A DNA stretch of 53,076 nucleotides from a virus (IMGVR_UViG_3300048065_000485:1-53076); one strand, 5' to 3'; positions 6,128 through 34,989 are shown, numbered from the stretch's first letter. Numbers and translations: made by a program. The notes: generated by a model not told the origin, from the letters alone.

Positions 6128-6554
6128 CAGAATGAATTTTTAATATAGTATGCAGTTTTTCTGTACCTTTGTTATAAGATAATGTAACTTTGGCACCATT
6201 ATGTAGAGGTTTTGGCCACTGCCCAATATTGACCCAGGCATAACCGGCACTTTCACCATTTATTTTTGGGGGCATAAATTCTTCTTCTACTACATATACA
6301 AAACTATAGTAATAAAATTTTTTATCTTTGCTTTGGTAGACATCTAAAGGATTTAATTTTTGCAGTTCTGGAACGAACCCTATCTCTTCTTCAAGTTCTC
6401 GTTGTATACATTCGTAAGGAGTTTCTCCCCTTTCAATTATACCTCCCCAAAATCCCCAGGTATGATTGAATCGTTTGTTGCCTTCTCGTAATTGCAACAT
6501 ACATCTTCCTGTGTCTTTGGCAAGGAATAAAACTCCTGCCGCCGTTGTGTTCAT
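6123..6554 (-). CDS. Nudix hydrolase
   Basis: 143 residues with a perfect Nudix box, G-x5-E-x7-REUxEExGU, at residues 38-60 (G38, E44, R52-E53, E56-E57, G59). The TWGFWGG run just before it resembles the GDP-mannose/NADH-type proteins seen in T4-like phages. It should cleave a nucleoside diphosphate linked to another moiety; the substrate cannot be read from sequence. The start overlaps the stop of gp15 by one base, so it is translated from the same minus-strand late mRNA. Confidence 0.9.
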   Translation of the reverse strand: MNTTAAGVLFLAKDTGRCMLQLREGNKRFNHTWGFWGGIIERGETPYECIQRELEEEIGFVPELQKLNPLDVYQSKDKKFYYYSFVYVVEEEFMPPKINGESAGYAWVNIGQWPKPLHNGAKVTLSYNKGTEKLHTILKIHSE

Positions 6555-7906
6555 TATAAACTAAGTCTCCAAAATCCTGGATTGTATTCTCCTTCATAAC
6601 TACTTATCCAGGCCTTGCCTGTCCATTTGTATTGTTTGGAAGTAAAAGAGTTATTTAGATAATGAATATCACTACTACTGGCACTAGCATCAAATACTAC
6701 AGTCCATGCAGAACCGTTGTATTGAATTATGTCGTTTGCCCCGGCATCTATGTCCCAATTAGGGTATCCTGATTTTGTAATTTCCTCTGTAATTAAATAT
6801 CTTTGTCCGTTAGAGGCGGCCGCTAGAGTACCGTCTCCAGGGAAGTTTGCTCTAGGATCTATAATTTTATCCACTGCAGAAAGTGTATTGGTAGGCAATG
6901 TATCTGTATCTAAATTAAAAATTAATGAAGCATCATTAGTTGGATTTTTAGTTACAGTACCATATACCAAATTTAATAAATTTTCTGAGTCACCGCTTAT
7001 ATTTAATTTTAATAAACTTGTAGATCTTATTTCTCCAAGTTGTTCTATAATACTAGACCACTTTACTTCAGTGCCATCTTGTTCTACTAATGTAGCAGTA
7101 GAACCTATTACTTGTACTTTGTAATCACCTGGTGTAGTAACAATCTCAAATGATTCTTCTATACTACCAAAGAAGTCTTGATAATCTTGGCTGTAACCTA
7201 ATTCTGAGATATCAGATACTGAATGTACATTGTTTATGATCTCTTGAATAATTGTTTGTCTTTTTACTTTAGCAGGAGGACTAATCCAAATAGGAAGTGC
7301 AAACGTTAAAGTTGAGATATCTAAGTTTTCATCTACACCTGCAGGAATACCTCTACTACTCCAAGCAATATCTGTTAGTTCTACTTCAAATACACTGGTC
7401 CAATCTAAAGGGTTACTATTGGATTGTAATTGTATGCTTGGATTAAACAATACAAATATTTGTTCTAATACTTGTAATTTAGTATCAGTATTAGTTGTCC
7501 AAAGATCTACATTAATTGTTAAATTATATGGTACAGGCATATACCTTTGTGTTGAGTATAAGTTGCCTTGTTCAGAAGAATAAGTTCCTGTTTCTTTATC
7601 AAATTCTCTTTCTGCTATCTGATTTGTATCTACAAAGAAAGGTTCTGCTATTCTATCTCTTGCTGGTTGTATACTTTGTATTGTAACACTTATAAAAGGA
7701 GCACTATTAATTACGTTTTCAGAATTATTACGCAATATATTTGCTACCATTCTACTAGCATCACCGTATCTTGCCGGTACACGATTATAACTTACGCCGT
7801 CTTTTGTAAATTCTCTAACTTTAAAGTTTGAAAAAATTCTAATAACTTGCAGTAAATAACGTTTTATCTGCTCGTCATACCAGTAATCTAAATTCTTACC
7901 TGCCAT
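6554..7906 (-). CDS. 15: Tail sheath stabiliser / tail completion protein gp15
   Basis: 450 residues. The first ~230 follow T4 gp15: a WYDEQIKRYLLQVIRIFSNF start, RVPARYGDA, APFISVTIQSI, then PVPYNLTINVDLWT and LEQIFVLFNPSIQLQ, matching remembered T4 gp15 blocks in the same order. gp15 caps the tail tube and sheath at the neck and joins gp14. The protein is ~180 residues longer than T4 gp15; the extension ends in two short modules (NDIIQYNGSAWTVV and KQYKWTGKAWISSYEG) also found in gp14 and the sheath here. Its ATG overlaps the gp14 stop by one base. Confidence 0.78.
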   Translation of the reverse strand: MAGKNLDYWYDEQIKRYLLQVIRIFSNFKVREFTKDGVSYNRVPARYGDASRMVANILRNNSENVINSAPFISVTIQSIQPARDRIAEPFFVDTNQIAEREFDKETGTYSSEQGNLYSTQRYMPVPYNLTINVDLWTTNTDTKLQVLEQIFVLFNPSIQLQSNSNPLDWTSVFEVELTDIAWSSRGIPAGVDENLDISTLTFALPIWISPPAKVKRQTIIQEIINNVHSVSDISELGYSQDYQDFFGSIEESFEIVTTPGDYKVQVIGSTATLVEQDGTEVKWSSIIEQLGEIRSTSLLKLNISGDSENLLNLVYGTVTKNPTNDASLIFNLDTDTLPTNTLSAVDKIIDPRANFPGDGTLAAASNGQRYLITEEITKSGYPNWDIDAGANDIIQYNGSAWTVVFDASASSSDIHYLNNSFTSKQYKWTGKAWISSYEGEYNPGFWRLSL

Positions 7907-8967
7907 TAGTTGTCCGTCCTAGGTTTAATGACTTTACTTAAATTTGTTTTTTCGTTAGCATCAGTGCCATCACTTTCACTAGTTATATTGTCATTATTAA
8001 TAAACGTAGCAAGTATTCTGTTTGCCGCAGACCAAGCCTTTCTTCCGTCTGTGCCAACGTTTAACCAACGTGTTCCAGATTTTTTAAATAATCTATTTGG
8101 TGAGAAGTCTGTTCTTAAGAAATAATCACCATCTGTAGTTCCACTTGTTGGGAATGTTTCTCCACTACCAACTAAACTAAGTCCATTTACAGGTGTTCCA
8201 TCAGCACCACCAAAGTCTATACTTGGCTTATCAGGTACAGTTTCATCAAAATATAAATGTGTAGTATTTCTAAATTGAGGATCGAAAGGTACGTCTTTTT
8301 CTGCCTGTTCTAAAAGTTTATCATTTATATTAATATCATTTGCGTATGTACTAATTAAATTTCTTAAATCTTCTTCCTCTTCGCCAGTACCAAGAATATC
8401 TCTGTATTCTTGTGAGTCTGTAATTGGGCCTAATTTTACTCTCCAAAGATGTGGCCACCAACGTGGGTCATATCCTTCTGCAGGCCTACTAGCATCTGTA
8501 ACTACATAATATCTGTTGATTGCTTCTTCGCTACCTAATAATAAGTCGTCTCTTAAATGTGGTAATTCTAATACATCACCTGCCATTAATTTTCTACCAA
8601 CTGCTTCTACCATGCTTTCTATATGGAAATTCATAAACAAAGTATCGTTTGCTAAAAACATACCAAATTGTGTTAAGTCAAATGCATCGTTATCGCCAAT
8701 GTTGTATTGTCCACGTAATTCGTAAATGTCTTTATCGTACTTTCTATCTCTATTTTCTAAAAATAACAAATCTTGTATAAAAACTTCTGAATCATTTGCC
8801 GCACTACTAGGTCTTGTAGGGTCTCCTTCATCTGGAGTTGTATGTACACCTAAGTATTTGTGTATATGTACACCGGTACCACCGGCATAAAGGTGCTCTC
8901 CGACAATTCTGTCAGTGAAGTTGTAGTCATTTGTTTTGACTGGGTTCCATAAACTTAATTTAGGCAT
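7906..8967 (-). CDS. 14: Neck protein gp14
   Basis: 353 residues. The central FGMFLANDTLFMNFHIESM, then KLMAGDVLELPHLRDD and NRYYVVTD, parallels T4 gp14 (FGM..QDEVTLSIN, then GDLIYFP). gp14 forms the ring linking the portal/gp13 to gp15. Position next to gp15 supports this. The C-terminal third carries one copy of a GDYFLRTD..NRLFKKSGTRW module related to repeats in gp15 and gp18. A late box 5 nt before the ATG (minus strand) implies leaderless late expression. gp13, usually adjacent, is on the other strand 8.8 kb away. Confidence 0.68.
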   Translation of the reverse strand: MPKLSLWNPVKTNDYNFTDRIVGEHLYAGGTGVHIHKYLGVHTTPDEGDPTRPSSAANDSEVFIQDLLFLENRDRKYDKDIYELRGQYNIGDNDAFDLTQFGMFLANDTLFMNFHIESMVEAVGRKLMAGDVLELPHLRDDLLLGSEEAINRYYVVTDASRPAEGYDPRWWPHLWRVKLGPITDSQEYRDILGTGEEEEDLRNLISTYANDININDKLLEQAEKDVPFDPQFRNTTHLYFDETVPDKPSIDFGGADGTPVNGLSLVGSGETFPTSGTTDGDYFLRTDFSPNRLFKKSGTRWLNVGTDGRKAWSAANRILATFINNDNITSESDGTDANEKTNLSKVIKPRTDN

Positions 8968-8972
8968 ACTAC

Positions 8973-8980
8973 TATTTATC
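8973..8980 (-). promoter_or_regulatory. Late promoter box GATAAATA, leaderless start
   Basis: Minus strand: box, gtagt, then ATG at 8967. It drives gp14-gp15-Nudix and is divergent from the plus-strand late box at 9028. Confidence 0.75.
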
Positions 8981-9027: not shown

Positions 9028-9035
9028 GATAAATA
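9028..9035 (+). promoter_or_regulatory. Late promoter box GATAAATA before tRNA-Ser
   Basis: Predicted +1 at about 9041, three bases before the mature tRNA 5' end at 9044. It likely drives the tRNA and the biosynthetic cassette behind it. Confidence 0.6.
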
Positions 9036-9043
9036 TCTAAAAC

Positions 9044-9133
9044 GGAAAGGTGGCTGAGTGGCTTAAAGCACTTCCCTGCTAAGGAAGAGTACGGGTAACT
9101 GTACCGAGAGTTCGAATCTCTCCCTTTCCGCCA
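9044..9133 (+). tRNA. tRNA-Ser (anticodon GCU)
   Basis: Acceptor GGAAAGG (9044-9050) pairs with CCTTTCC (9123-9129), then discriminator G and encoded CCA. The anticodon stem CTTCC/GGAAG encloses loop CTGCTAA with anticodon GCT at 9078-9080 (reads AGC/AGU). The long variable arm is typical of serine tRNA, and the T arm has GAGAG-TTCGAAT-CTCTC. A late box lies just upstream. It probably helps decode AGU, which is common in these AT-rich genes. Confidence 0.93.
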
Positions 9134-9142
9134 GGAAAAATT

Positions 9143-10528
9143 ATGAGAAATATTAATATATTTTATTTAGAAGATGGGTTTCAGTTTACTAAAGAAACTA
9201 TAGAACAACATACGGCAAAAGGTTGGACAGGACGTGAGCCCTTGCCGTTGCATGTACTCACACAAATAGAATTAGAGCAGAACTATAATCCATTTAAGGA
9301 AATGTTTGACATAAACATTATTAATAATGGTGACATATCGAAATGTGATTCACAAGATATCACACTTGTTCCAATAGATATACAAAGTTTTCCTATAACA
9401 ATAGAAAATCGTAAGAATTATTACTTGTCTCCTTTTGGAGAAGAAGTAGATAAAGTAGTACAGAAAATTCTTTCTTTAAACTTACCAAATTTAGTTTTAT
9501 TGTTTTATTCTAGTACTGAGCCTTATTTCTTTGATGCAAATATATACCTTGCAGAGTTAGGTTCTAATAATCCAAATATAAAAATTATATTAAGTGGGTC
9601 AGGAGAGACTGAAGATTATTTTGGGCACTATACTAATTATACAGCAAAACTTCGTAATGTACATAAAATACACAAACTTTGGTATTTTGATCGAGTACAT
9701 TATATGACATTCTTATCACAAGATGAAGAATTTAATAAAGTCCATTTAGAAATGGATAGAAAAATGACTGATAGAGAAAAGAAACTGTACCACATAGTAC
9801 CTAATAAATTTTTGTGTACACTAAGAAATTGTCGTTCTCATAGATTGCTTTTTTCTACTCTATTAGAAAATAGTGCTATAGGATTAGATGATATAACATA
9901 TGGCAGATTCTATAGTTTAAGACCTACAGATTTAATGAAAATTGCCGGCAACGAAAACACTAAAGATGAATATCCATATCATATAGAACTTATTTCAACT
10001 AGTCTTAATCAATTATTAAACAAAGAAGATTTAGATGATAGTTTAACAAGAGATGTAATGGACAATCTTATGAGCCGCCCACATATAATCGATATGAAGA
10101 ATATAGACGATAGAGGTATTCCCGGCCCTTGGTTATATGAAGACTGTGATATTGTAATCACTCCAGGCGGAGAACCTTACGGATATGGTTATGTAGACGA
10201 AAAGCAATTAATACCTATGGCATTTAAAAAGCCTTTTATAACATTTGGCTGTAAGGGAATTTACGAAGAATTAAAAAATATAGATTTCAAAACTTTTGAT
10301 GATTGTTGGCCTGTAAATTTTAATGAAGCAGATACTTTATTAGAAAGAGTACAAGGCTTCTTTACTGTTTTTGAATATATAAGAAATTTAAGTCCTTCTG
10401 CATATCAAGAACTATTAGAAAAGACAAAGGATAGTGTAGAGTTTAATTATAACCATTTAGTAGATGGTACATTTAGAAGAAAAAGTAATGAAAACTTTTT
10501 TCAGGAGATTTATAATGCCTGCAGTTAG
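9143..10528 (+). CDS. Glycosyltransferase-like protein (exostosin-like C-terminal pattern)
   Basis: 461 residues, no signal peptide. The stretch KFLCTLRNCRSHRLLFSTLLE followed ~100 residues later by DIVITPGGEPYGYGYVDEKQLIPMAFKKPFITFGC and a hydrophobic/aromatic run resembles phage glycosyltransferase-like proteins: an N-R..HR block, then an acidic ..EK...P....PFI..G motif that would bind a sugar nucleotide. The gene at 33817 is a distant paralogue. AGGAA precedes the ATG. It opens the biosynthetic cassette, suggesting transfer of the cassette's product to DNA, protein or host surface. The substrate is unknown, and the catalytic assignment is inference from pattern. Confidence 0.5.
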   Translation: MRNINIFYLEDGFQFTKETIEQHTAKGWTGREPLPLHVLTQIELEQNYNPFKEMFDINIINNGDISKCDSQDITLVPIDIQSFPITIENRKNYYLSPFGEEVDKVVQKILSLNLPNLVLLFYSSTEPYFFDANIYLAELGSNNPNIKIILSGSGETEDYFGHYTNYTAKLRNVHKIHKLWYFDRVHYMTFLSQDEEFNKVHLEMDRKMTDREKKLYHIVPNKFLCTLRNCRSHRLLFSTLLENSAIGLDDITYGRFYSLRPTDLMKIAGNENTKDEYPYHIELISTSLNQLLNKEDLDDSLTRDVMDNLMSRPHIIDMKNIDDRGIPGPWLYEDCDIVITPGGEPYGYGYVDEKQLIPMAFKKPFITFGCKGIYEELKNIDFKTFDDCWPVNFNEADTLLERVQGFFTVFEYIRNLSPSAYQELLEKTKDSVEFNYNHLVDGTFRRKSNENFFQEIYNACS

Positions 10529-11393
10529 AGGAGCAAGACCTGTTAGAAATAAAGAAATTCAGGATTTTCATTGGCACTTAGATAAAAATGATTTAAAAAA
10601 TGTAACACTTTCAGAATACGAAAAAGTTTGGAGAGAATGGATTAATTATTCTAATACAAAATCTCTACAAGGTTTAGAAAATTTTACTCATGTAGATTAT
10701 ACACAAGGAACAAGCCAAACATTTGATCAGTTTATTTTAAGGCATAGTAAAGACAGAGAAATAATTGTTTTAAGCGGAGACTTCCAATATCATGCTTGTT
10801 TAGGAAAGCACGTTGAATTTAAATATGTAGACTATCCTCACTATTTAGAAGGCACACTACAAGGTCCAGGCTTACATGCTTTACTTATAAGTGCACCATT
10901 TAGTGACTTTGGTGTTATACATCCTGACTTTGAAGAATTAATGAGAATATGTAATGTAATGGATATACCTGTATGTTTGGATTTAGCATATTGGGGTATT
11001 AGTAAGCATGTTCATATAAATTTAAATGATTTCCCTGCTATTAAAGAAGTCACATGTAGTCTAAGTAAGCCATTTTTTACACTGGAAAATCACAGAGTAG
11101 GCGTACGATTTACAAGAGATTATGTAGATGATGGTGTAAGTATGCTTAATGAAGTAAAAATGCAAAATAATTATAGTATGGCATTAGGTGTAGAATATAT
11201 GCGTAATTTTTCTCCTGATTATAATTGGGAAAAATATAGAGATTTATACGAAACAATATGTTCTAATGAAGAATTAGTTTGGACAGATACTATGATTTTT
11301 GGATTAGGAGATGATATAAGACATGCAGAATATAATAGAGGTGTGTCTGGTAACTATAGAGTCTGTATTTCGGACTGGCTAGGTGATTGTTAA
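10515..11393 (+). CDS. PLP-dependent aminotransferase-like protein (fold type I)
   Basis: The ATG at 10515 has AGGAGA 6 nt upstream and overlaps the previous gene by 14 bp; the in-frame ATG at 10464 lies too deep in it. 292 residues, shorter than most aminotransferases (~350-400). Fold-type-I marks: D156 in CLDLAYWG (pyridine-nitrogen Asp, with Y159) and K185 in CSLSKPFFTLENHRVGVRF, where S-x-S-K...R-x-G-x-R is the Schiff-base lysine and phosphate-binding pattern. The small domain seems reduced. It could aminate a keto-sugar or keto acid within the cassette. Assignment rests on these motifs; a catalytically altered relative is possible. Confidence 0.6.
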   Translation: MPAVRGARPVRNKEIQDFHWHLDKNDLKNVTLSEYEKVWREWINYSNTKSLQGLENFTHVDYTQGTSQTFDQFILRHSKDREIIVLSGDFQYHACLGKHVEFKYVDYPHYLEGTLQGPGLHALLISAPFSDFGVIHPDFEELMRICNVMDIPVCLDLAYWGISKHVHINLNDFPAIKEVTCSLSKPFFTLENHRVGVRFTRDYVDDGVSMLNEVKMQNNYSMALGVEYMRNFSPDYNWEKYRDLYETICSNEELVWTDTMIFGLGDDIRHAEYNRGVSGNYRVCISDWLGDC

Positions 11394-11400
11394 ATAAATA
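11393..11400 (+). promoter_or_regulatory. Late promoter box AATAAATA before amidinotransferase
   Basis: Overlaps the upstream stop codon (taa 11391-11393). Predicted +1 near 11406, giving a 30-nt leader with AGGAG at 11423-11427. Confidence 0.55.
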
Positions 11401-11435
11401 GTAGCATATAATAACTACACCCAGGAGACACATAA

Positions 11436-12497
11436 ATGATAGTTAATTCTCACAACGATTGGGACCCATTGGAAGAGATCATCGTTGGACATGCTCACCA
11501 CAGCAGAATTGCAACTGATATATCCGCAAGAAGTTTCAGTTACGCAAACTTTCCAAAAGAAGACGTAGAAAAATTAGAAGGCACTTATCCGCAATGGGTA
11601 ATTGACGAAGCAAATGAAGATGCAGATGGACTTGCAAAAGCATTAGAAGATTTAGGTGTAATAGTACACCGTCCTAAAATTATAGATTGGGATAAAAAGA
11701 ATTACGACATAGGCCAAGGCTGGAATACAAAAGGCTGGTACAGTTGGTGTCCGAGAGATTTAATATTACCATTAGGCGATATGCTTATTGAAACTCCTAC
11801 TCCTGTAAGAGCAAGATATTTTGAAACAAGATTATACGAAGACATTATGTATGAAGCATTTGAAGATGGTGCTTTATGGATGTCAGCACCAAAACCTAAG
11901 TTACATGATGACATGTACACATTTGAAGACATTGAAGACAAGCCAACGTTGTTAAACCATGAAATTTGTTTTGATGCACCAAACATTGTGAGAGTTGGTA
12001 AAGACTTGTTGTATCAAGTTAGCAATAGTGGTAACATGAAAGGCTACCAGTGGTTAAAAAGATTAGTTGAACCTATGGGTTACAAAATGCATTATAGTGA
12101 ACTTTACAGTTTCGCACATTTTGATAGCACTATTGTTCCACTTAGACCAGGGCTAGTACTTATGAACAGCTCAAGGGTAACACCTGACAACTGTCCTGAA
12201 ATGTTTAAAAAGTGGGATAAGATTTGGTTTGATGATTGTGTTGTACAAGGTAGTAAATTAGCAGACGAAGGCTACATGCCACCATGCTCACCATACATTG
12301 GTATGAACTTACTAAGTGTAGATCAAAATACTGTAATCTTAGACTCAGCACAAGAACCTCTAATGAGGGAACTTGACAAGTACGGTATAGATAGTGTACC
12401 TGTACAGTTTAGGCATTCTATGACGCTCTCTGGCGGCATACATTGTGCTACTTTAGATCTAAGACGTAAAGGAACTTTAGAGAGTTATTGTGATTAA
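11436..12497 (+). CDS. Glycine amidinotransferase family enzyme (AGAT-like)
   Basis: 353 residues. The start matches the family (SHNDWDPLEEIIVGHA). Predicted catalytic triad in the guanidine-modifying fold: D180 (FDAPNIVRVGKDLLYQ), H228 (FAHFDSTIVPLRPG) and C337 (GGIHCATLDLRRKG). Spacing is close to human AGAT (Asp254, His303, Cys407). It should move an amidino group from arginine onto an amine. The neighbouring PLP enzyme could supply the amine. The gene has its own late box and AGGAG ribosome site. Phage copies are unusual; the acceptor is unknown. Confidence 0.88.
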   Translation: MIVNSHNDWDPLEEIIVGHAHHSRIATDISARSFSYANFPKEDVEKLEGTYPQWVIDEANEDADGLAKALEDLGVIVHRPKIIDWDKKNYDIGQGWNTKGWYSWCPRDLILPLGDMLIETPTPVRARYFETRLYEDIMYEAFEDGALWMSAPKPKLHDDMYTFEDIEDKPTLLNHEICFDAPNIVRVGKDLLYQVSNSGNMKGYQWLKRLVEPMGYKMHYSELYSFAHFDSTIVPLRPGLVLMNSSRVTPDNCPEMFKKWDKIWFDDCVVQGSKLADEGYMPPCSPYIGMNLLSVDQNTVILDSAQEPLMRELDKYGIDSVPVQFRHSMTLSGGIHCATLDLRRKGTLESYCD

Positions 12498-12984
12498 ATA
12501 CGGGCATATAGATAACTTCGGTATCACACATGATCAGATGAGTCAATTAAACTTTGAAGATTACTTCCAATGTTATCAGCAAACACCTGCTGTAGAAAAG
12601 TATTATACAAAACATAATAGTAGTATATGGCAGATGTTTGAAACTTCCCCTCAATGGGTACATGATTTATCATTAAAAATACCTCAAGACTTTGATCACC
12701 ATGTAGTAAGTGTAATTAATGTAGAGCCTGGGCAGACAATTCCACATCATGTTGATAAACATTTTAAATTAAAACAAGAACATGGTGAAGGCGAAAGTCA
12801 TCGCTATCTAATATTTTTAGAAGATTGGAAACGTGGACACTATTATGAAGTACATGATCAGCCTTTTGTAAAATGGAGAGCAGGTGATTGGGTAAAGTTT
12901 GGTATAGATGATTGGCATATTGCAGGAAACATGGGAGAGGAGCCTTTTTATTCAGCACAAATAACGGTACTAAAAAATGTATAA
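12490..12984 (+). CDS. 2OG-Fe(II) oxygenase-like / cupin-fold protein, first of a pair
   Basis: The GTG start overlaps the amidinotransferase stop by 8 bp. 164 residues. Candidate iron ligands: H87-V-D89 (PGQTIPHHVDKHF) and distal H143 (DDWHIAGN), with R105 (SHRYLIFLED) between, in the layout of aspartyl/asparaginyl-hydroxylase-like double-stranded beta-helix proteins. It would hydroxylate a substrate using 2-oxoglutarate and O2. The next gene is a paralogue with the same HxD..H frame. Substrate unknown; likely the cassette intermediate or a protein side chain. Confidence 0.62.
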   Translation: MIKYGHIDNFGITHDQMSQLNFEDYFQCYQQTPAVEKYYTKHNSSIWQMFETSPQWVHDLSLKIPQDFDHHVVSVINVEPGQTIPHHVDKHFKLKQEHGEGESHRYLIFLEDWKRGHYYEVHDQPFVKWRAGDWVKFGIDDWHIAGNMGEEPFYSAQITVLKNV

Positions 12985-13519
12985 AGGACATAAAGATATT
13001 TCATTTGTTACAGATGAAATGATTTATAGAGTTAAATTTACAGAACATACTAATACAGTTTATAGTGCAGGTTTTTGGGATAGTATGGGAGTAGCAGTAC
13101 CTGATTATCCTTACGATGCACCTTGGGTACATCAAGTATTTGAAAGTGATTGTGATTATTGGGTGCATGAAGTTAAACACCAATTTGATGATGTATTAAA
13201 ATATAGTGTTGCTACAGTAAATTGTATTAAACCTGGGAGGTTTATTGCACCACATACAGATACACTTTATAAAATTAAAGAACGAGTAAAGAAAGAAAAA
13301 TTAAACATAAAAGGATTAGAACCTGTACGAATAAATTTATTTTTACAGGATAGGTTGATGGGTCATTATTTTGAAATGGAAAATGAATCTTGGATAGATT
13401 ACAAAAAAGGAGATTTTACAGTAATAAAACCTAATGCAGAACATCTTGTTGCAAATTTAGGATACCAAAATAGATACACATTACAAGTTACAGGATTTGC
13501 AGAAAAAGGAACATTTTAA
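12977..13519 (+). CDS. 2OG-Fe(II) oxygenase-like / cupin-fold protein, second of a pair
   Basis: 180 residues; overlaps the preceding gene by 8 bp. Candidate ligands H93-T-D95 (PGRFIAPHTDTLYK) and H156 (NAEHLVANLG), with RINLFLQD and GHYFEME in between, matching the paralogue's RYLIFLED and GHYYEVH blocks. Two tandem copies with the same ligand triad suggest successive hydroxylations or different substrates. Family call is from motifs; a non-oxygenase cupin role cannot be excluded. Confidence 0.62.
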   Translation: MYKGHKDISFVTDEMIYRVKFTEHTNTVYSAGFWDSMGVAVPDYPYDAPWVHQVFESDCDYWVHEVKHQFDDVLKYSVATVNCIKPGRFIAPHTDTLYKIKERVKKEKLNIKGLEPVRINLFLQDRLMGHYFEMENESWIDYKKGDFTVIKPNAEHLVANLGYQNRYTLQVTGFAEKGTF

Positions 13520-13528
13520 GGAATAAAC

Positions 13529-14485
13529 ATGAGAATATTTATAACAGGAGCAGACGGTTTTATAGGTCAGCACATGGTTGAACGATTAAAAGACAAACAC
13601 GAACTAGAATTTTTAAAAGAAGATTTAAGAGACCATGCCAAGGTTGCCATGCAGATCTCAACTTTTGATCCTGAGATAATTGTTCATTTGGCGGCAAGAA
13701 CAGAAGTACAGGACAGTTTTTATGAACAAATAACTTTTAGCGAAGTAAATTACGTTGGTACTGTAAATTTAATTGAAATTGCGGCAACACTACCTAATTT
13801 GAAAAATTTTGTATTTGCAAGTACAATGGAAGTATATGGTTGGCAACCTATAAGTGATTTGATTAGAGACGGAAAAGAAGAAGGAATAATTGCATTTAAT
13901 GAAGCAACACCTCCGAATCCAAATGCCCCCTACGCCGTTGCAAAGTATGGCTGTGAAAAATACTTAGAGTATGCTCATAGAAGTTATGGATTACCTTTTA
14001 CTGCTATTAGACAAACAAATGCATACGGTAGAAAGGACAATGACTTTTTTGTAACAGAACAAATTATTACACAAATGTTAAAAAATCCAGATGAGATTAA
14101 CTTAGGATATGGCGAGCCATACAGAAACTTTATTTACATTGATGATTTATTAGATGCATGGGAAACAGTAATAACAAATCCTGATAAGTGTGCTGGTGAA
14201 ATATTCTGTATAGGACCAGACAATGCAATTAAAATAAAGGACTATGTGCAACTCATTGCAGATAAACTTGAATGGAAAGGTCATGTAAATTGGAATACTA
14301 AACCTCCAAGACCAGGTGAAATTTATTTACTTAATAGTACTAATCATAAAATTACAACAAGATTAGGTTGGTTCCCTAAAGTAGAATTAAGTGAAGGACT
14401 AGATAGAACTATTGCTGTCTGGAAAGATGTTTTAGAAAATAATTTGCCACATAATCAGGACAGAAGATTTTCTAAAGGAAAATAA
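13529..14485 (+). CDS. NAD-dependent nucleotide-sugar epimerase/dehydratase (extended SDR)
   Basis: 318 residues. An N-terminal Rossmann motif GADGFIG (G7, G10, G13), VHLAARTEVQ, S/T in FASTMEVYG, the catalytic pair Y135/K139 (PYAVAKYG), then RQTNAYG and NFIYIDDLLDAW identify an extended SDR acting on NDP-sugars. It would oxidise at C4 and epimerise or dehydrate the sugar. Complete length for the family. It gives the cassette a sugar-nucleotide branch. AAGGAA precedes the ATG; the next gene follows in TAATG. Confidence 0.9.
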   Translation: MRIFITGADGFIGQHMVERLKDKHELEFLKEDLRDHAKVAMQISTFDPEIIVHLAARTEVQDSFYEQITFSEVNYVGTVNLIEIAATLPNLKNFVFASTMEVYGWQPISDLIRDGKEEGIIAFNEATPPNPNAPYAVAKYGCEKYLEYAHRSYGLPFTAIRQTNAYGRKDNDFFVTEQIITQMLKNPDEINLGYGEPYRNFIYIDDLLDAWETVITNPDKCAGEIFCIGPDNAIKIKDYVQLIADKLEWKGHVNWNTKPPRPGEIYLLNSTNHKITTRLGWFPKVELSEGLDRTIAVWKDVLENNLPHNQDRRFSKGK

Positions 14486-16341
14486 TGTTTAACATTACTT
14501 TAGTTCAGCCTAATTTTCAGACTGGGCCTAAGCATCTTAATAGTTATTATTTGCCTTATAGTGTTGGTTCCTTATGGAGTTATTTACTACAACATTCTCA
14601 AATAGAAGAAAATTATCAAGTAGATAATTGGATATTTAGACGAGAAACATTACAAGATGTAGTAGATAGATGTAAAAATACAGATATAGTTTTTATAAGT
14701 TTATACATTTGGAATAAAAATTATTGCCTTATGTTAGGTAAAATTTTAAAAGAAGCCTATCCAAATATTAAAATTATTTTAGGCGGCCCTGAAGTACCTC
14801 ATAGAAATCCAAATTTTTTAAAAGACAATGATTATATTGATTCTATAGTAATCGGAGAAGGCGAGTTAGCAGTATTAGATATACTTACTGCTTATTTAGA
14901 TGAAAAACCCTTAGAGCAAGTGTATGAATACGAGAGGATAAAGGATTTAAACTTACCTAGTCCTTATACACTAGGATTGTTTGACGATCTTTTAAAACAA
15001 CACCCAGATATAGAATGGGTTCCAACATTAGAAACAGATAGAGGATGCCCTTACAGTTGTACTTTTTGTGATTGGGGAAGTGCCACAGCAAGTAAAATGT
15101 ATAAATTATATGACGATAGAATACTTGCAGATCTTCAATGGGTAGCAGATAATAAATTACCTTACCTAGCATTAACATCTAGTAATTTTGGAATCTTTAA
15201 GGATAGAGATTTGATGATAACAGATATGATTGTTAAAACAACTAAAGAAACAGGTTACCCAAAAGGCATTAGTGTAAGTTATGCAAAAAACAGTAATGAT
15301 ACTGTATTAGAAATTGTTAAAAAATTTATAGATGTGAATATACAAACAGGAATAACTTTGAGTTTACAAACAACAACTGAAGAAGTTTTAGAGAATATTA
15401 AACGTAAAAATATGAAAATTAATTCTATTGATGAAATCATAGGATCTGCAAAAGAAAAAAATGTTCCTGCCCTAACAGAATTAATATTAGGCATGCCAGG
15501 TGAAACTGTGGAATCATGGAAGTCTACTTTAGAACAAATATTAATAAATGAAATACCAACATTAGATGTTTACTTTTTACAACTATTAGTAAACTCTCCA
15601 ATGTATGTAAAACAAATACAAGAATATGATTTAAAAACATTTTATGCATATGACTTTTTCTATGGTGTACAGAACGAAAAATTTGAATACGATAAAAAAC
15701 ATAAGATATCGGAATCTATAGAAGTTATAAAAAGCACAAATACAATATCAGAAAAAGAAATGGCAGATGTATCTTTGTTTACTGTTTTTGTATTAGGATT
15801 TCAAATGTTTGGATTATCAAATATTATGTCTACTCATTTAAATAAAACACAAGGATTGTCTTATATAAAGTTCTATGAAGGTCTATACGAATATCTTATT
15901 GAAAACGATACTAATATTAATATATGGCTAGAAAAGTTACAAAAGGGTTTTATAGATTGGAAAAAAACAGGTTATATGGATACAAACATAGATGGAGTAC
16001 ATATAGAAGGTTGGAAATTTTTCCATTCCTTAATGCCAATCATTCAACAGAATAATTTAGTATCACATTATATAGATCTTGTTGCAGATTATTCTAAACA
16101 ATTTACAACATCTGATATTATAGAAGATTTTGTAAAAGTATCAAATTTACAAATTAAACAATTTGACTCACAAATACACGAATCTCTCCAGGTTACAGTC
16201 AAAAGTAACCTTTTTCCTGCAAATTTAATTATTTCTGATAGATACGGAGACTACTTGGCAGAAAAAGAAGAACACTTAGATATGCTCTTTTTTGGAAGAC
16301 GTAGAGGATGGCACCTTAATAAAATAAGTCTTGACAAATAA
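14485..16341 (+). CDS. Radical SAM enzyme with N-terminal cobalamin-binding-like domain
   Basis: 618 residues. Residues ~1-160 form a B12-binding-like Rossmann domain (LVQPNFQTGP, YYLPYSVGSLWSYL, IILGGPEVPHRN, IGEGE) without the DxHxxG base ligand, as usual for the radical SAM subgroup. The iron-sulphur motif CxxxCxxC is C188-C192-C195 (GCPYSCTFCDWG). ELILGMPGET is a typical later strand. The C-terminal ~200 residues are unassigned. It should cleave SAM to a 5'-deoxyadenosyl radical, doing methylation or rearrangement at unreactive carbon. The phage also carries a SAM synthetase at 41960. TAATG coupling to the epimerase. Confidence 0.88.
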   Translation: MFNITLVQPNFQTGPKHLNSYYLPYSVGSLWSYLLQHSQIEENYQVDNWIFRRETLQDVVDRCKNTDIVFISLYIWNKNYCLMLGKILKEAYPNIKIILGGPEVPHRNPNFLKDNDYIDSIVIGEGELAVLDILTAYLDEKPLEQVYEYERIKDLNLPSPYTLGLFDDLLKQHPDIEWVPTLETDRGCPYSCTFCDWGSATASKMYKLYDDRILADLQWVADNKLPYLALTSSNFGIFKDRDLMITDMIVKTTKETGYPKGISVSYAKNSNDTVLEIVKKFIDVNIQTGITLSLQTTTEEVLENIKRKNMKINSIDEIIGSAKEKNVPALTELILGMPGETVESWKSTLEQILINEIPTLDVYFLQLLVNSPMYVKQIQEYDLKTFYAYDFFYGVQNEKFEYDKKHKISESIEVIKSTNTISEKEMADVSLFTVFVLGFQMFGLSNIMSTHLNKTQGLSYIKFYEGLYEYLIENDTNINIWLEKLQKGFIDWKKTGYMDTNIDGVHIEGWKFFHSLMPIIQQNNLVSHYIDLVADYSKQFTTSDIIEDFVKVSNLQIKQFDSQIHESLQVTVKSNLFPANLIISDRYGDYLAEKEEHLDMLFFGRRRGWHLNKISLDK

Positions 16342-16379: not shown

Positions 16380-16604
16380 ATGGAAACTTATATTTTATTT
16401 TTTATCTTTATTTTAATAAACTCATATTTTTCATTTAAAGCAGGTGAAAAATCAGGTAGGTTTATAGGAATGTTACATATTGTTCAGTTTTTTCAAACCA
16501 AAGGAGTATTAAAAGATAAAAAAGAAATAGTTGGGTTTAAAAATTGGCCAAGGGCTATACAGGTATTATACCTTGACCCAAGAGAAGAACTATTTGAGGA
16601 TTAG
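16380..16604 (+). CDS. Small N-terminally anchored membrane protein
   Basis: 74 residues: one hydrophobic span at the N-terminus (ETYILFFIFILINSYFSF), then a basic/charged cytoplasmic part with ending PREELFED. A good ribosome site (GAGGAG) lies before the ATG and a probable sigma70 promoter just upstream. Family not recognised. Confidence 0.6.
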   Translation: METYILFFIFILINSYFSFKAGEKSGRFIGMLHIVQFFQTKGVLKDKKEIVGFKNWPRAIQVLYLDPREELFED

Positions 16605-16612
16605 ACACATAC

Positions 16613-17770
16613 ATGGCACGAAGAAAAGCAGTTAGAAGCATTTACGTTACTAAAGAACCTGAATGGAAAACTATTAAATTAATTACAGAACCTTCAGAAC
16701 AAGAAGAAGCATTTAAAAGTTGCGAGTATTTTGTTCGTACTGAAATAGCAAAAAAGAAATTAGTAGCCTCTTGTAAAAAATGGGTTAAAGATAATTCAGG
16801 TTGGACTAAAGAAGAAATTAAAACAGTATGCTCATGTCCAGACTGGAGTTTTTCTAGTGCTGGGATATCTACATATATATTTTATAAGATAGGCTTTATG
16901 CCAGAGCATGTAGAAAAACATTATCACGAAAGAAGAAAAGAAGAATGGTTAAAACGTGGCGAACAAACAATAGCAGAAAAACAAGTAAAAGCAGAAACAA
17001 GTCCTAAAAAAGTAATTAGCATTCAGGAAAGAATGAAAATGCAAGTAGAACATCTATGTGCTGATTGGGAATATAAATTAGACTGTTTTGTTGAGGGAAA
17101 TATTACACTTAAAGAATTTGATCCCTACAAAGATATGTTATCGTATCAGCCTGAGATAAAGGCCGCACATGCAACTTTAATAAAGCAAGATTTCGAACCT
17201 GCATATAAAGAATCACTAGAAGTAAAAGAATGGACTGACCCAGACATAAAAGAAGGTTATGCACACTTTACACCTAAAATGAGAAAAGAGTTTGTTGAGT
17301 TTTTTGTAAAGATTAATACTGCATGTGATACAATTATAGAAACAAAAAAGACTACTAGAAAGGCTCGTAAACCTAGAGCAAGATCAAAAGAGTCTATTAT
17401 AAAGAAATTAAAATTCCAATTAAATTGCCCAGACTTAGGTATTGCAAGTATACATCCTACAGACATAGTTCATGCAAATGAAATATGGATATACAATACT
17501 AAAACAAGGAAATTAGGTGTATACCATGCAATTAATAAAGATCCAAGAGGTATGGGTAGAGATGGATTAATGGTTAAAGGTACAACTATACAGGACTTTG
17601 ATGAAGATTCTAGTATACAAAAGACACTTAGAAAACCTAAAGAACAAATTAATAATTGGACTGGTAAAGCAAAAACTAAATTTGCTAAGGCATTTGATGA
17701 ATTAACAACTACAGGCATTAAAATGAACGGCAGAATGAACGATAATACTATAATACTACAAGCCTTTTAA
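16613..17770 (+). CDS. Conserved T4-like phage protein, unknown function
   Basis: 385 residues, Lys/Arg-rich, no membrane span. The central KKTTRKARKPRARSKESIIKK is highly basic. It is followed by a conserved-looking C-terminal domain (IHPTDIVHANEIWIYNTKTR, then GLMVKGTTIQDFDEDSSI and KTLRKPK). I recall this domain from marine T4-like phages without a known function. Basic composition and placement before gp13 suggest DNA binding or head/neck assembly; that is inference. Fourteen bases separate it from the next late box. Confidence 0.65.
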   Translation: MARRKAVRSIYVTKEPEWKTIKLITEPSEQEEAFKSCEYFVRTEIAKKKLVASCKKWVKDNSGWTKEEIKTVCSCPDWSFSSAGISTYIFYKIGFMPEHVEKHYHERRKEEWLKRGEQTIAEKQVKAETSPKKVISIQERMKMQVEHLCADWEYKLDCFVEGNITLKEFDPYKDMLSYQPEIKAAHATLIKQDFEPAYKESLEVKEWTDPDIKEGYAHFTPKMRKEFVEFFVKINTACDTIIETKKTTRKARKPRARSKESIIKKLKFQLNCPDLGIASIHPTDIVHANEIWIYNTKTRKLGVYHAINKDPRGMGRDGLMVKGTTIQDFDEDSSIQKTLRKPKEQINNWTGKAKTKFAKAFDELTTTGIKMNGRMNDNTIILQAF

Positions 17771-17780
17771 TGTGAAAATT

Positions 17781-17788
17781 GATAAATA
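17781..17788 (+). promoter_or_regulatory. Late promoter box GATAAATA, leaderless start
   Basis: Followed by gtact and the ATG at 17794 (5-nt gap). Confidence 0.75.
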
Positions 17789-17793
17789 GTACT

Positions 17794-18555
17794 ATGCCAG
17801 TAGATCAAATAGGATATAACAACAGAGAAGAACTTGTAAACGAGTTACAATTACGTCTGGCAGACGGTATTGTAGACGTTGAATTAGATAGAGCACATTA
17901 TGATATTGCTATAGACAAGTCACTTGCTTTGTATAGACAACTTAGTGCAGGTGCCGTAGAAGAAAGTGCCCTGTTTTTAACAACACAAGAAGGTGTAACG
18001 GAGTATACATTACCAGATGAAGTAATGGAAGTGCGTAGATTATACAGAAAAGGTGTTGGTACTAATAGCGGTGGCGGTACAAACTTCGATCCTTTTGATG
18101 TAGCATTTAATAATATGTACTTATTACAGGCAGGCCAAATGGGCGGATTAGCAGTATTCGATGCATTTAGTCAATATAAAGAAGTTTTAGGTAGAATATT
18201 TGGTAGTGAATATAATTTCTTATGGAATAGGAATACCAAACAACTTAAAATTTTAAGAAATGTAAGACACGAAGAAGAAATTGCTGTAGGCATTTATAAT
18301 TTCATACCAGAAAGTATTTTGTTAAAAGACATATATGCCGCAAATTGGTTGGCCGCTTATGCTCTTGCTCAGTCTAAAATGATGTTAGGTGAGGCAAGAA
18401 GTAAATATGCTAGTGGACTTCCTGGTGCAGGCGGAAACATACAGTTAAATGGTGATGCATTGAAACAAGAAGCAATAGCAGAAATGGATAAAGGGCGAGA
18501 ATCGTTATTCCAGAAGGAAGAAGGTAATGCCCCATTAGGATTTGTAATAGGATAA
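17794..18555 (+). CDS. 13: Neck protein gp13
   Basis: The start is placed at ATG 17794 because the late box ends 5 nt upstream; the in-frame TTG at 17779 would lie inside the promoter. 253 residues. The pattern (REELVNELQLRLADGIVDVELDRAHYDIAIDKSLALYRQ, then TEYTLPDEVMEVRRLYR and FLWNRNTKQLKI) matches the gp13 neck proteins of marine T4-like phages. gp13 sits between the portal and gp14 and closes the filled head. Displaced from gp14 by the tRNA/biosynthetic cassette. Confidence 0.72.
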   Translation: MPVDQIGYNNREELVNELQLRLADGIVDVELDRAHYDIAIDKSLALYRQLSAGAVEESALFLTTQEGVTEYTLPDEVMEVRRLYRKGVGTNSGGGTNFDPFDVAFNNMYLLQAGQMGGLAVFDAFSQYKEVLGRIFGSEYNFLWNRNTKQLKILRNVRHEEEIAVGIYNFIPESILLKDIYAANWLAAYALAQSKMMLGEARSKYASGLPGAGGNIQLNGDALKQEAIAEMDKGRESLFQKEEGNAPLGFVIG

Positions 18556-33418: not shown

Positions 33419-33880
33419 ATGGCTACCCATTATAATAATATTGTTCAAGACTTAGGTAATATAGTTCCGGCAATCGAGTATTACGAAAAAGAATTGAACG
33501 AAGCAAGATGGGAAGTAAAGATCAAAGGGAGTTTGGAGAAAGCCTCCTCCTCCCTACCCGGTCTGACAGAGTTTCGCTTCAATCAACTACAAGAGATTGA
33601 AGCAATTCTCGAACATCTAAATATAGAACTTCGCAAAGAACGTTCTAAAACATTCAGAAAATATTTGGAAAATTATAATAGAACTTTGAGCAGTAGAGAT
33701 GCAGATAAGTTTGTAGATGGTGAACAATCAGTTATAGATCTAACTCACCTTGTGAACCAATTTAGCCTTTTGAGAAATAAATACTTAGGCATAATGAAAG
33801 GATTGGATACAAAGCAATGGCAGATAGGACACATAACGAGATTGAGAACGGCAGGAATGGAAGACATAGTGATAGAATAG
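33419..33880 (+). CDS. uvsY: Recombination mediator UvsY
   Basis: 153 residues (T4: 137). Two long helices with the order W..k.....E, R....LE.YNRTLSSRDADKF, EQSVIDLTHLVNQFSLLRNKYLGIMKGLDTKQWQI and a final RLRTAGMED, paralleling T4 UvsY (…KYEKSEMKTVLSADKDVLK…AIKHIQDMRAFEAG). It loads UvsX onto gp32-covered DNA. Context between uvsX and other recombination genes supports the call. Confidence 0.82.
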   Translation: MATHYNNIVQDLGNIVPAIEYYEKELNEARWEVKIKGSLEKASSSLPGLTEFRFNQLQEIEAILEHLNIELRKERSKTFRKYLENYNRTLSSRDADKFVDGEQSVIDLTHLVNQFSLLRNKYLGIMKGLDTKQWQIGHITRLRTAGMEDIVIE

Positions 33881-34989
33881 TCCATCACTTTAATTTACAA
33901 GACTGCGAAGAAAGAGCAAGAACTAATTTTGAAGATTTTTCAGTAACACTTACAAAAGATCTTGTAAACAAATTAGAAGCAGACCCAAGTTATTCAAAAC
34001 AAATAGATATAATTTTTAGGTATACTAGTGAAGGTACCTTATGGTTAGTCAATGGTGAATGGTGGGCAGGCACAATACACAAATTTGCAAAAAAATATAA
34101 TATACCATTAGAAAATATTACATTTCTATCAGCAAGTGCTACAGTAGAAAGTTCATATAATAAATGGCATTCTTTACATGCTCCAAATGACGGTAAAATA
34201 AATTGTGATTATGAACACTTTGGTTTTGAACTATATGGTAAGAATAAAAGATATTACGATTATTTAAAATTTACTACAGAAGCACCCACAGATATTAGAA
34301 AACATAAATTTAATTGTTTTAATAGAAATATGTTAGCACACAGACAGAGATTTATGCTGTCTATGTGGGAAAAGGGATTAATAGAGACAGATAAATTAAC
34401 TAGTTTTCATTACTATAAAGATGTAGATTTTATGCCACAGTTTTCTGTGCCAGAAGAATTACAAAAACTTTTACCTATACAATGCGATATTAAAGGTGAT
34501 TGGCAGACAGCATTTGATACATTATTTGAAATTGTAGAATGGACAGGAGATGATGGTGGAGACTGGAATAAAGTAGGTGATTACAGATATGTATATGAAA
34601 ATTCTTATTTTACTGTAACTACTGAAAGTTCAGAATGTTATACACTTGCAGATCAATTTGATGATGAAGAATTAAATAATTATCTCAAACCTTTTCATAC
34701 AGAAATGTTTATTACTGAAAAAACAACACGACCTATGTTAAATTTACATCCACAGGTAATCTATTGTTGTACAGGTACTTTAGACCATTTAAGAAGTATG
34801 GGATATAAAACATTTAGTAATTATTGGAACGAAGATTATGATAATGAAATAGACCCCATAAAGAAAGTAAATATGGTGACTGATGTTGTTAAAGAACTTA
34901 ATGACAAACCCATAGAAGAACTACATGAAATGTATTGGGATATGATGCCAATACTAAAACATAACCAATCCCTCCTAATAAATCAATAA
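33817..34989 (+). CDS. Glycosyltransferase-like protein, paralogue of the one at 9143
   Basis: 390 residues. The 5' 64 bp overlap uvsY in another frame; no later in-frame start exists until deep in the protein, so the overlap appears real. Core pattern: KHKFNCFNRNMLAHRQRFMLS (N-R...HR), then FHTEMFITEKTTRPMLNLHPQVIYCC and LRSMGYKTFSNYWNEDYD. This matches the 9143 gene's NCRSHR, VDEKQLIPMAFKKPFITFG and FKTFDDCW blocks in the same order. Probable sugar-transferring enzyme; target unknown (phage DNA or host glycan). Confidence 0.55.
   Translation: MADRTHNEIENGRNGRHSDRIVHHFNLQDCEERARTNFEDFSVTLTKDLVNKLEADPSYSKQIDIIFRYTSEGTLWLVNGEWWAGTIHKFAKKYNIPLENITFLSASATVESSYNKWHSLHAPNDGKINCDYEHFGFELYGKNKRYYDYLKFTTEAPTDIRKHKFNCFNRNMLAHRQRFMLSMWEKGLIETDKLTSFHYYKDVDFMPQFSVPEELQKLLPIQCDIKGDWQTAFDTLFEIVEWTGDDGGDWNKVGDYRYVYENSYFTVTTESSECYTLADQFDDEELNNYLKPFHTEMFITEKTTRPMLNLHPQVIYCCTGTLDHLRSMGYKTFSNYWNEDYDNEIDPIKKVNMVTDVVKELNDKPIEELHEMYWDMMPILKHNQSLLINQ

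Follow-up and report, generated by a model that had tools for sequence, protein, structure and literature searches.

A conserved enzyme cassette in the gp14-gp13 region of jumbo phages and its possible guanidino-sugar product

What could a phage build with seven enzyme genes carried among the genes of its virion? The question is raised by a 53 kb IMG/VR virus record (the whole stretch of 53,076 nucleotides that was analyzed is called the window here), in which a tRNA-Ser(GCT) gene and seven enzyme genes, named A to G, occupy positions 9044-16341, all on the plus strand and with overlaps or short gaps between them. The cassette is flanked by a gp14-like gene on the minus strand and by h74, h385, and gp13 on the plus strand. 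The gp13 of the window shares 50% identity with its counterpart in Pseudomonas phage PA5oct and about 40% with gp13 of other jumbo phages (e.g., XbC2 and Phosso), which, on sequence grounds, marks the window as a fragment of a jumbo myovirus. ORF and tRNA calls confirmed the gene positions, the single strand and the tight spacing between gp14 and gp13 that had been described in the original prediction, as follows:

6554-7906, minus strand: gp15-like gene (left flank)
7906-8967, minus strand: gp14-like virion structural protein (left flank; phrog_11591, 5.5e-93)
9044-9133, plus strand: tRNA-Ser (GCT), accessory, seen only in cassettes with A upstream of B
9143-10528, plus strand: A, GT-B-fold protein, putative glycosyltransferase, accessory (AlphaFold2 and Foldseek)
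10515-11393, plus strand: B, compact PLP fold-type-I (class I/II aminotransferase-like) enzyme, putative, core (fold and invariant residues)
11436-12497, plus strand: C, StrB1-like L-arginine amidinotransferase, predicted, core (StrB1 match, catalytic triad)
12490-12984, plus strand: D, 2OG-Fe(II) oxygenase-like protein (Fe triad H87/D89/H143 kept, no Arg at H+10)
12977-13519, plus strand: E, 2OG-Fe(II) oxygenase-like protein of Asp_Arg_Hydrox type (H93/D95/H156/R166 invariant)
13529-14485, plus strand: F, predicted NAD-dependent nucleotide-sugar epimerase/dehydratase (extended SDR), core (Pfam, catalytic residues)
14485-16341, plus strand: G, cobalamin-binding radical SAM protein of TokK/CysS/KedN5 type, putative C-methyltransferase, accessory (TokK, 1.2e-70)
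16380-17770, plus strand: h74 and h385 (phrog_11903), before gp13 (right flank)
17779-18555, plus strand: gp13 (right flank)

These coordinates are those of the ORFs as called, except for B, which was called at 10464-11393; alignment places its true start at 10515 (MPAVRGARP...), giving an A/B overlap of 14 bases. Apparent stops in B came from alignments that extended upstream of this start and were set aside.

Enzyme classes and active sites

The classes of C, F, and G are clear from their sequences. The closest solved structure to C is StrB1, an inosamine-phosphate amidinotransferase (PDB 1bwd, 5.7e-84), ahead of human AGAT (5e-54) and also of SxtG. The HMM match to StrB1 and AGAT is full-length, the Asp/His/Cys triad (D180, H228, and C337) is invariant in 15 diverse sequences, and C belongs by these features to the AGAT/StrB1 group of penteins; in the tree it was placed on the StrB1 side with weak support (82/72). 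F scored 141.8 bits against the Pfam Epimerase family (cut-off 20.9) and reached no equivalog cut-off; it carries both the GxxGxxG and the YxxxK motifs, with Y135xxxK139, T99, and E101 invariant. In G, the B12-binding (PF02310) and PF04055 domains both scored over their cut-offs and the CxxxCxxC cluster (C188/C192/C195) is invariant, as expected of a predicted cobalamin-dependent radical SAM enzyme. Its score against the KedN5 subfamily (NF033712) was 217 bits, below the curated cut-off of 700 bits, which places G outside this subfamily.

Two proteins were classified by fold, as neither B nor A matched any family in family searches or any solved structure in profile searches. The AlphaFold2 model of B (pLDDT 80.8) gave 871 Foldseek matches at E<=1e-3, and those listed are PLP fold-type-I enzymes, including HisC and AspAT. 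Residues K202, D173, Y176, and R211 (ORF numbering from 10464) are invariant in the aligned relatives. The fold and the Schiff-base lysine thus point strongly to a PLP fold-type-I aminotransferase-like protein, and B is predicted to act as an aminotransferase. A 282-residue protein similar to B is present in another uncultured phage. For A (pLDDT 87.8), the best Foldseek matches are GT-B enzymes (best E 8e-4, TM about 0.3), and the GT-B matches include T4 beta-glucosyltransferase, which A resembles weakly in fold; we assign A with modest confidence to the GT-B fold, as a putative glycosyltransferase.

E has a sub-threshold match to Asp_Arg_Hydrox and D is its paralogue. The HxD...H iron triad is present in 71 of 71 sequences of each protein (H87, D89, and H143 in D; H93, D95, and H156 in E). 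E also has R166 in all 71, the arginine expected to bind 2OG, whereas D has F153 at that position, again in 71/71. Since it lacks the arginine at H+10, D may be atypical and not a standard 2OG enzyme; its co-substrate could be a different one, or its role another. Of the two 2OG oxygenases originally predicted, both therefore keep the iron triad and only E the full motif. The other predicted classes held, those of C, F, and G by sequence and those of A and B by fold, and none of the aligned relatives showed a decayed active site in B, C, E, F, or G.

Conservation, insertion site, and promoter

To determine whether these genes are inherited together, we scanned IMG/VR with C, which returned 119 relatives, of which 80 loci were kept. 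All 80 have the same arrangement, with B, C, and F present wherever the contig reaches. To avoid selection by C, loci were also chosen by B and by gp13. Among the loci selected by B, C is present in 40/40, F in 35/35 testable loci and gp14 in 40/40; of the 45 gp13-selected loci with 2.3 kb or more of upstream sequence, cassette genes are present in 41, and the remaining four (L213, L228, L252, and L254) have a clean empty site, with gp14 directly against h74. In the 102 kb record of L228, C was absent from the rest of the record as well. B-C-F order and strand are kept in every testable locus, and dN/dS values of 0.026-0.14 indicate purifying selection on all seven genes. Mean identity of C across 81 loci is 90%, as compared to 81% for gp13 and 79% for gp14. 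The cassette is a real evolutionary unit, in agreement with the coherent operon that had been proposed.

The seven genes as a fixed set fared less well. The conserved core is B-C-F, nearly always with D and/or E, giving three to five genes, and its smallest form is B-C-F alone (L078 and L079); A, G, and the tRNA are optional. Of 45 loci, 20 were found to have the tRNA, and in each of them A lies upstream of B, as it does in 2 of the 25 loci without the tRNA. A belongs to a family that is multi-copy in these phages, with paralogues elsewhere in the window and also in a relative of 250 kb, one of them adjoining a G-like gene. The paralogue in the window is a second GT-B-like gene at 33817-34989, away from the cassette. 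Some loci have, between B and C, a member of another accessory family, whose C-terminus is related to A. In 41 of the 80 loci a minus-strand radical SAM/SPASM gene, absent from the window, lies between gp14 and the cassette (e.g., L004:1770-3089) as a second radical SAM partner that comes and goes, and other accessory genes encode DUF6071/SGNH-like proteins and a possible sulfotransferase, the latter called from a weak Pfam match (0.18) and a motif. In one cassette only, a full-length isocitrate lyase gene (L014:6471-7784; Pfam ICL, 1.1e-93) lies between tRNA-Ser and A.

The four empty sites, the neighboring gp14 (minus) and gp13 (plus) genes of phages Atu_ph07 and Phosso, and the presence of other genes at this place in PA5oct together establish the gp14/gp13 region as a divergent cargo site. 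A cargo site had indeed been predicted, as an interruption of a gp13-gp14-gp15 run; as gp14 and gp13 are divergent, the cassette sits instead in a divergent intergenic region. The same data bear on whether unrelated metabolic genes were simply gathered at a permissive site, with no joint pathway: the site does take other cargo and accessory genes come and go, but the constant order and strand of B-C-F, the translational overlaps and the strong purifying selection make this hardly credible.

We found neither B nor A in cultured phage records. A search for B in 194 cyanobacterial genomes gave only one fragment (L084) and one marginal match. L084, a contig of Synechococcus lacustris str. Tous, carries B-C-D-E with C at 86% identity; it was rejected as an indication of the host, being a 3.7 kb phage-like fragment in an assembly without gp13.

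Both sides of the divergent region carry a motif resembling the late promoter of phage T4, which is TATAAATA:

8973-8980, minus strand: T4-like late promoter motif GATAAATA, 13 nt upstream of the start of the divergent gp14 gene
9028-9035, plus strand: T4-like late promoter motif GATAAATA of the cassette, 16 nt upstream of the tRNA

NATAAATA immediately precedes the first cassette element in 34 of 36 loci; its first letter is G or T in 23 of them (script count) and A in another 11 (printed sequences). The window contains 12 sites of GATAAATA, against 6.3 expected, and 11 of the 12 are on the plus strand. TATAAATA alone was rejected as the late promoter, with four sites against 12.8 expected; the motif here is mostly GATAAATA. 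The likeness of NATAAATA and GATAAATA to the T4 late promoter suggests that the cassette is transcribed late, together with the virion genes. In the four empty-site relatives, a TTGACA-type sequence precedes h74, a hint that h74-h385 may have a sigma-70-type promoter of their own.

Possible product of the cassette

A nucleotide-sugar enzyme, together with an arginine amidinotransferase and a PLP enzyme that would form an amine, points to a sugar or cyclitol that bears a guanidino group. We tentatively favor, as falling just short of an even chance, the reading that the cassette is a late biosynthetic operon for a sugar-like building block with a guanidino group, which is transferred as a glycan decoration. 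The scheme that we infer, in each of its reactions and substrates, its step order and its acceptor, would run as follows. F would convert an NDP-sugar into a keto or epimerised form, B would install an amine, and C would transfer the amidino group of L-arginine to that amine, giving the guanidino group. D and E could hydroxylate the product, G, where present, could methylate it at carbon, and A or other phage-encoded GT-B proteins of the A family would transfer the moiety. The core B-C-F, with D/E, would thus make a conserved moiety, and A, G, and other accessory genes would vary the decoration. Virion proteins are the most plausible acceptor, because of the predicted late transcription with virion genes and the position of the cassette.

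In favor of a glycan, the same types of partner recur around phage amidinotransferases of other lineages. On the other hand, B resembles class I/II enzymes, and known sugar aminotransferases usually belong to the DegT family; the core has no glycosyltransferase tied to it, as many cassettes lack A; and the cassette was found to contain no acceptor, flippase or anchoring gene. Relatives of StrB1 and AGAT also serve non-sugar pathways, and F could act in a different pathway.

We also considered a product that is not attached to a glycan, namely a diffusible guanidino amino acid, aminocyclitol or polyamine that would act on the host or competitors or serve as a counter-ion for DNA. The gene neighborhoods of StrB1 and its bacterial relatives are natural-product-like, the nearest matches of G, TokK and CysS, belong to antibiotic pathways, the minimal core B-C-F has no glycosyltransferase, and the cassette proteins are all predicted to be soluble. 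Still, F, a predicted nucleotide-sugar enzyme, is never missing, glycan-type enzymes, including A-family GT-B proteins, are repeatedly found near phage amidinotransferases, and carrier, NRPS/PKS, and exporter genes are absent from the cassette; we regard a diffusible product as rather unlikely, if a serious contender.

Adding the guanidino-sugar to the LPS or capsule of the host, perhaps as a barrier to re-infection, would equally employ the sugar-nucleotide enzyme and the GT-B protein, and the swappable accessory genes look like those of glycan-decoration loci. Such remodeling of the host surface is nonetheless distinctly unlikely, as the cassette lacks a membrane protein, a flippase and a membrane-anchored transferase, and a late promoter would leave little time for altering the surface.

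DNA hypermodification had also been proposed, with the enzymes building a modified base or a glycosylated nucleotide. T4 beta-glucosyltransferase is among the fold matches of A, and 2OG enzymes and amidino groups are both known in DNA modifications. Archaeosine is an amidino-type example among them (PMC6884629). Against this, a late promoter is ill-suited to modifying replicating DNA, and the cassette is absent from four close relatives. In six related records, including the 250 kb one, QueC (PF06508) and TGT (PF01702) gave no match while controls were positive, although parts of these records may be lacking and a DpdA gene could have escaped the search; the thymidylate-synthase/hydroxymethylase family (PF00303) was likewise without a match in the same, possibly incomplete, records. 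This role is thus disfavored and appears very improbable. PreQ1-amidination, for which a QueE-like gene had been read by eye in the 250 kb relative, was dropped as QueC and TGT were absent.

With the glycan decoration as the preferred reading, the broader picture would be that of a widespread lineage of uncultured jumbo phages with its own late guanidino-sugar pathway, whose virions are decorated (or which releases the sugar) and in which methylation and accessory tailoring vary, a viral glycan chemistry for which no counterpart has been described; we consider this possible, and on balance doubtful. If true, these phages would produce a guanidino-sugar with a positive charge and attach it late in infection, a viral modification absent from the literature searched, and amidinotransferases of at least four unrelated phage groups would gain a concrete function. 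The pairing of a strongly conserved core with variable decoration is reminiscent of an arms race over a structure of the virion or surface, and the presence and absence alleles at one fixed site allow phages with and without the cassette to be compared.

Relation to known systems

Our literature search found no published description of the cassette, which is best called a set of phage-borne sugar or small-molecule modification genes whose chemistry and gene set have not been described before. For the most likely product, a guanidino-sugar, the chemistry is essentially undescribed in phages. An ocean survey reported a different enzyme, guanidinoacetate N-methyltransferase, as enriched in viruses (PMC11360552). 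The earlier view that no such phage pathway is familiar holds for the cassette itself, yet there is a precedent in Campylobacter phages CP220 and CPt10, which carry interchangeable modules with five radical SAM genes and an amidinotransferase, for which no function was given (PMC2853527).

In CP220 the amidinotransferase lies beside radical SAM genes and predicted nucleotide-diphospho-sugar transferases, and in Campylobacter phage WX1 a short class I/II aminotransferase accompanies the amidinotransferase and the radical SAM genes. These phages differ from the cassette in lineage; C is only 24-31% identical to their amidinotransferases, and neither a 2OG pair nor a homologue of F or G was found in them. 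Homology between B and the WX1 aminotransferase was considered and is not supported, as no similarity was detectable.

A closer amidinotransferase (38% identical to C) occurs in cyanophage S-SCSM2R, where it adjoins a D/E-like 2OG protein (HMM E 7e-16) in a cluster that also holds a DegT aminotransferase, a radical SAM gene and glycosyltransferases. In contrast to the cassette, this locus has no B, F, or G homologue and does not lie at the gp14/gp13 site. In AG-345-D19, the amidinotransferase stands beside a possible sulfotransferase and SGNH-like proteins.

The streptomycin-type guanidino-cyclitol pathway resembles the cassette in that StrB1 is the solved structure closest to C and an aminotransferase is paired with an amidinotransferase, a pairing also seen beside a Streptomyces relative (L166). 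Its aminotransferases, however, are of the DegT type whereas B is class I/II-like, and the cassette, arranged as a predicted phage late operon, lacks a cyclitol synthase but has 2OG proteins and a predicted nucleotide-sugar enzyme. G shares the CxxxCxxC cluster, the B12-binding domain and the TokK match with the TokK/CysS/KedN5 methylases, from which its low KedN5 score sets it apart. Finally, T4-type DNA glucosylation also employs a phage GT-B enzyme after sugar activation, and A is weakly similar in fold to its beta-glucosyltransferase; unlike T4, no pathway for a hydroxymethylated base was found here and expression is predicted to be late rather than early.

The 250 kb relative (G002, which includes L151-L163) has further genes that we read by eye, including curli-like genes, a pseudoazurin-like gene, a cytochrome-like gene, an array of SPASM-like genes near 160-177 kb, a NodU-type carbamoyltransferase gene and the QueE-like gene, and it may contain a second sugar or natural-product region.
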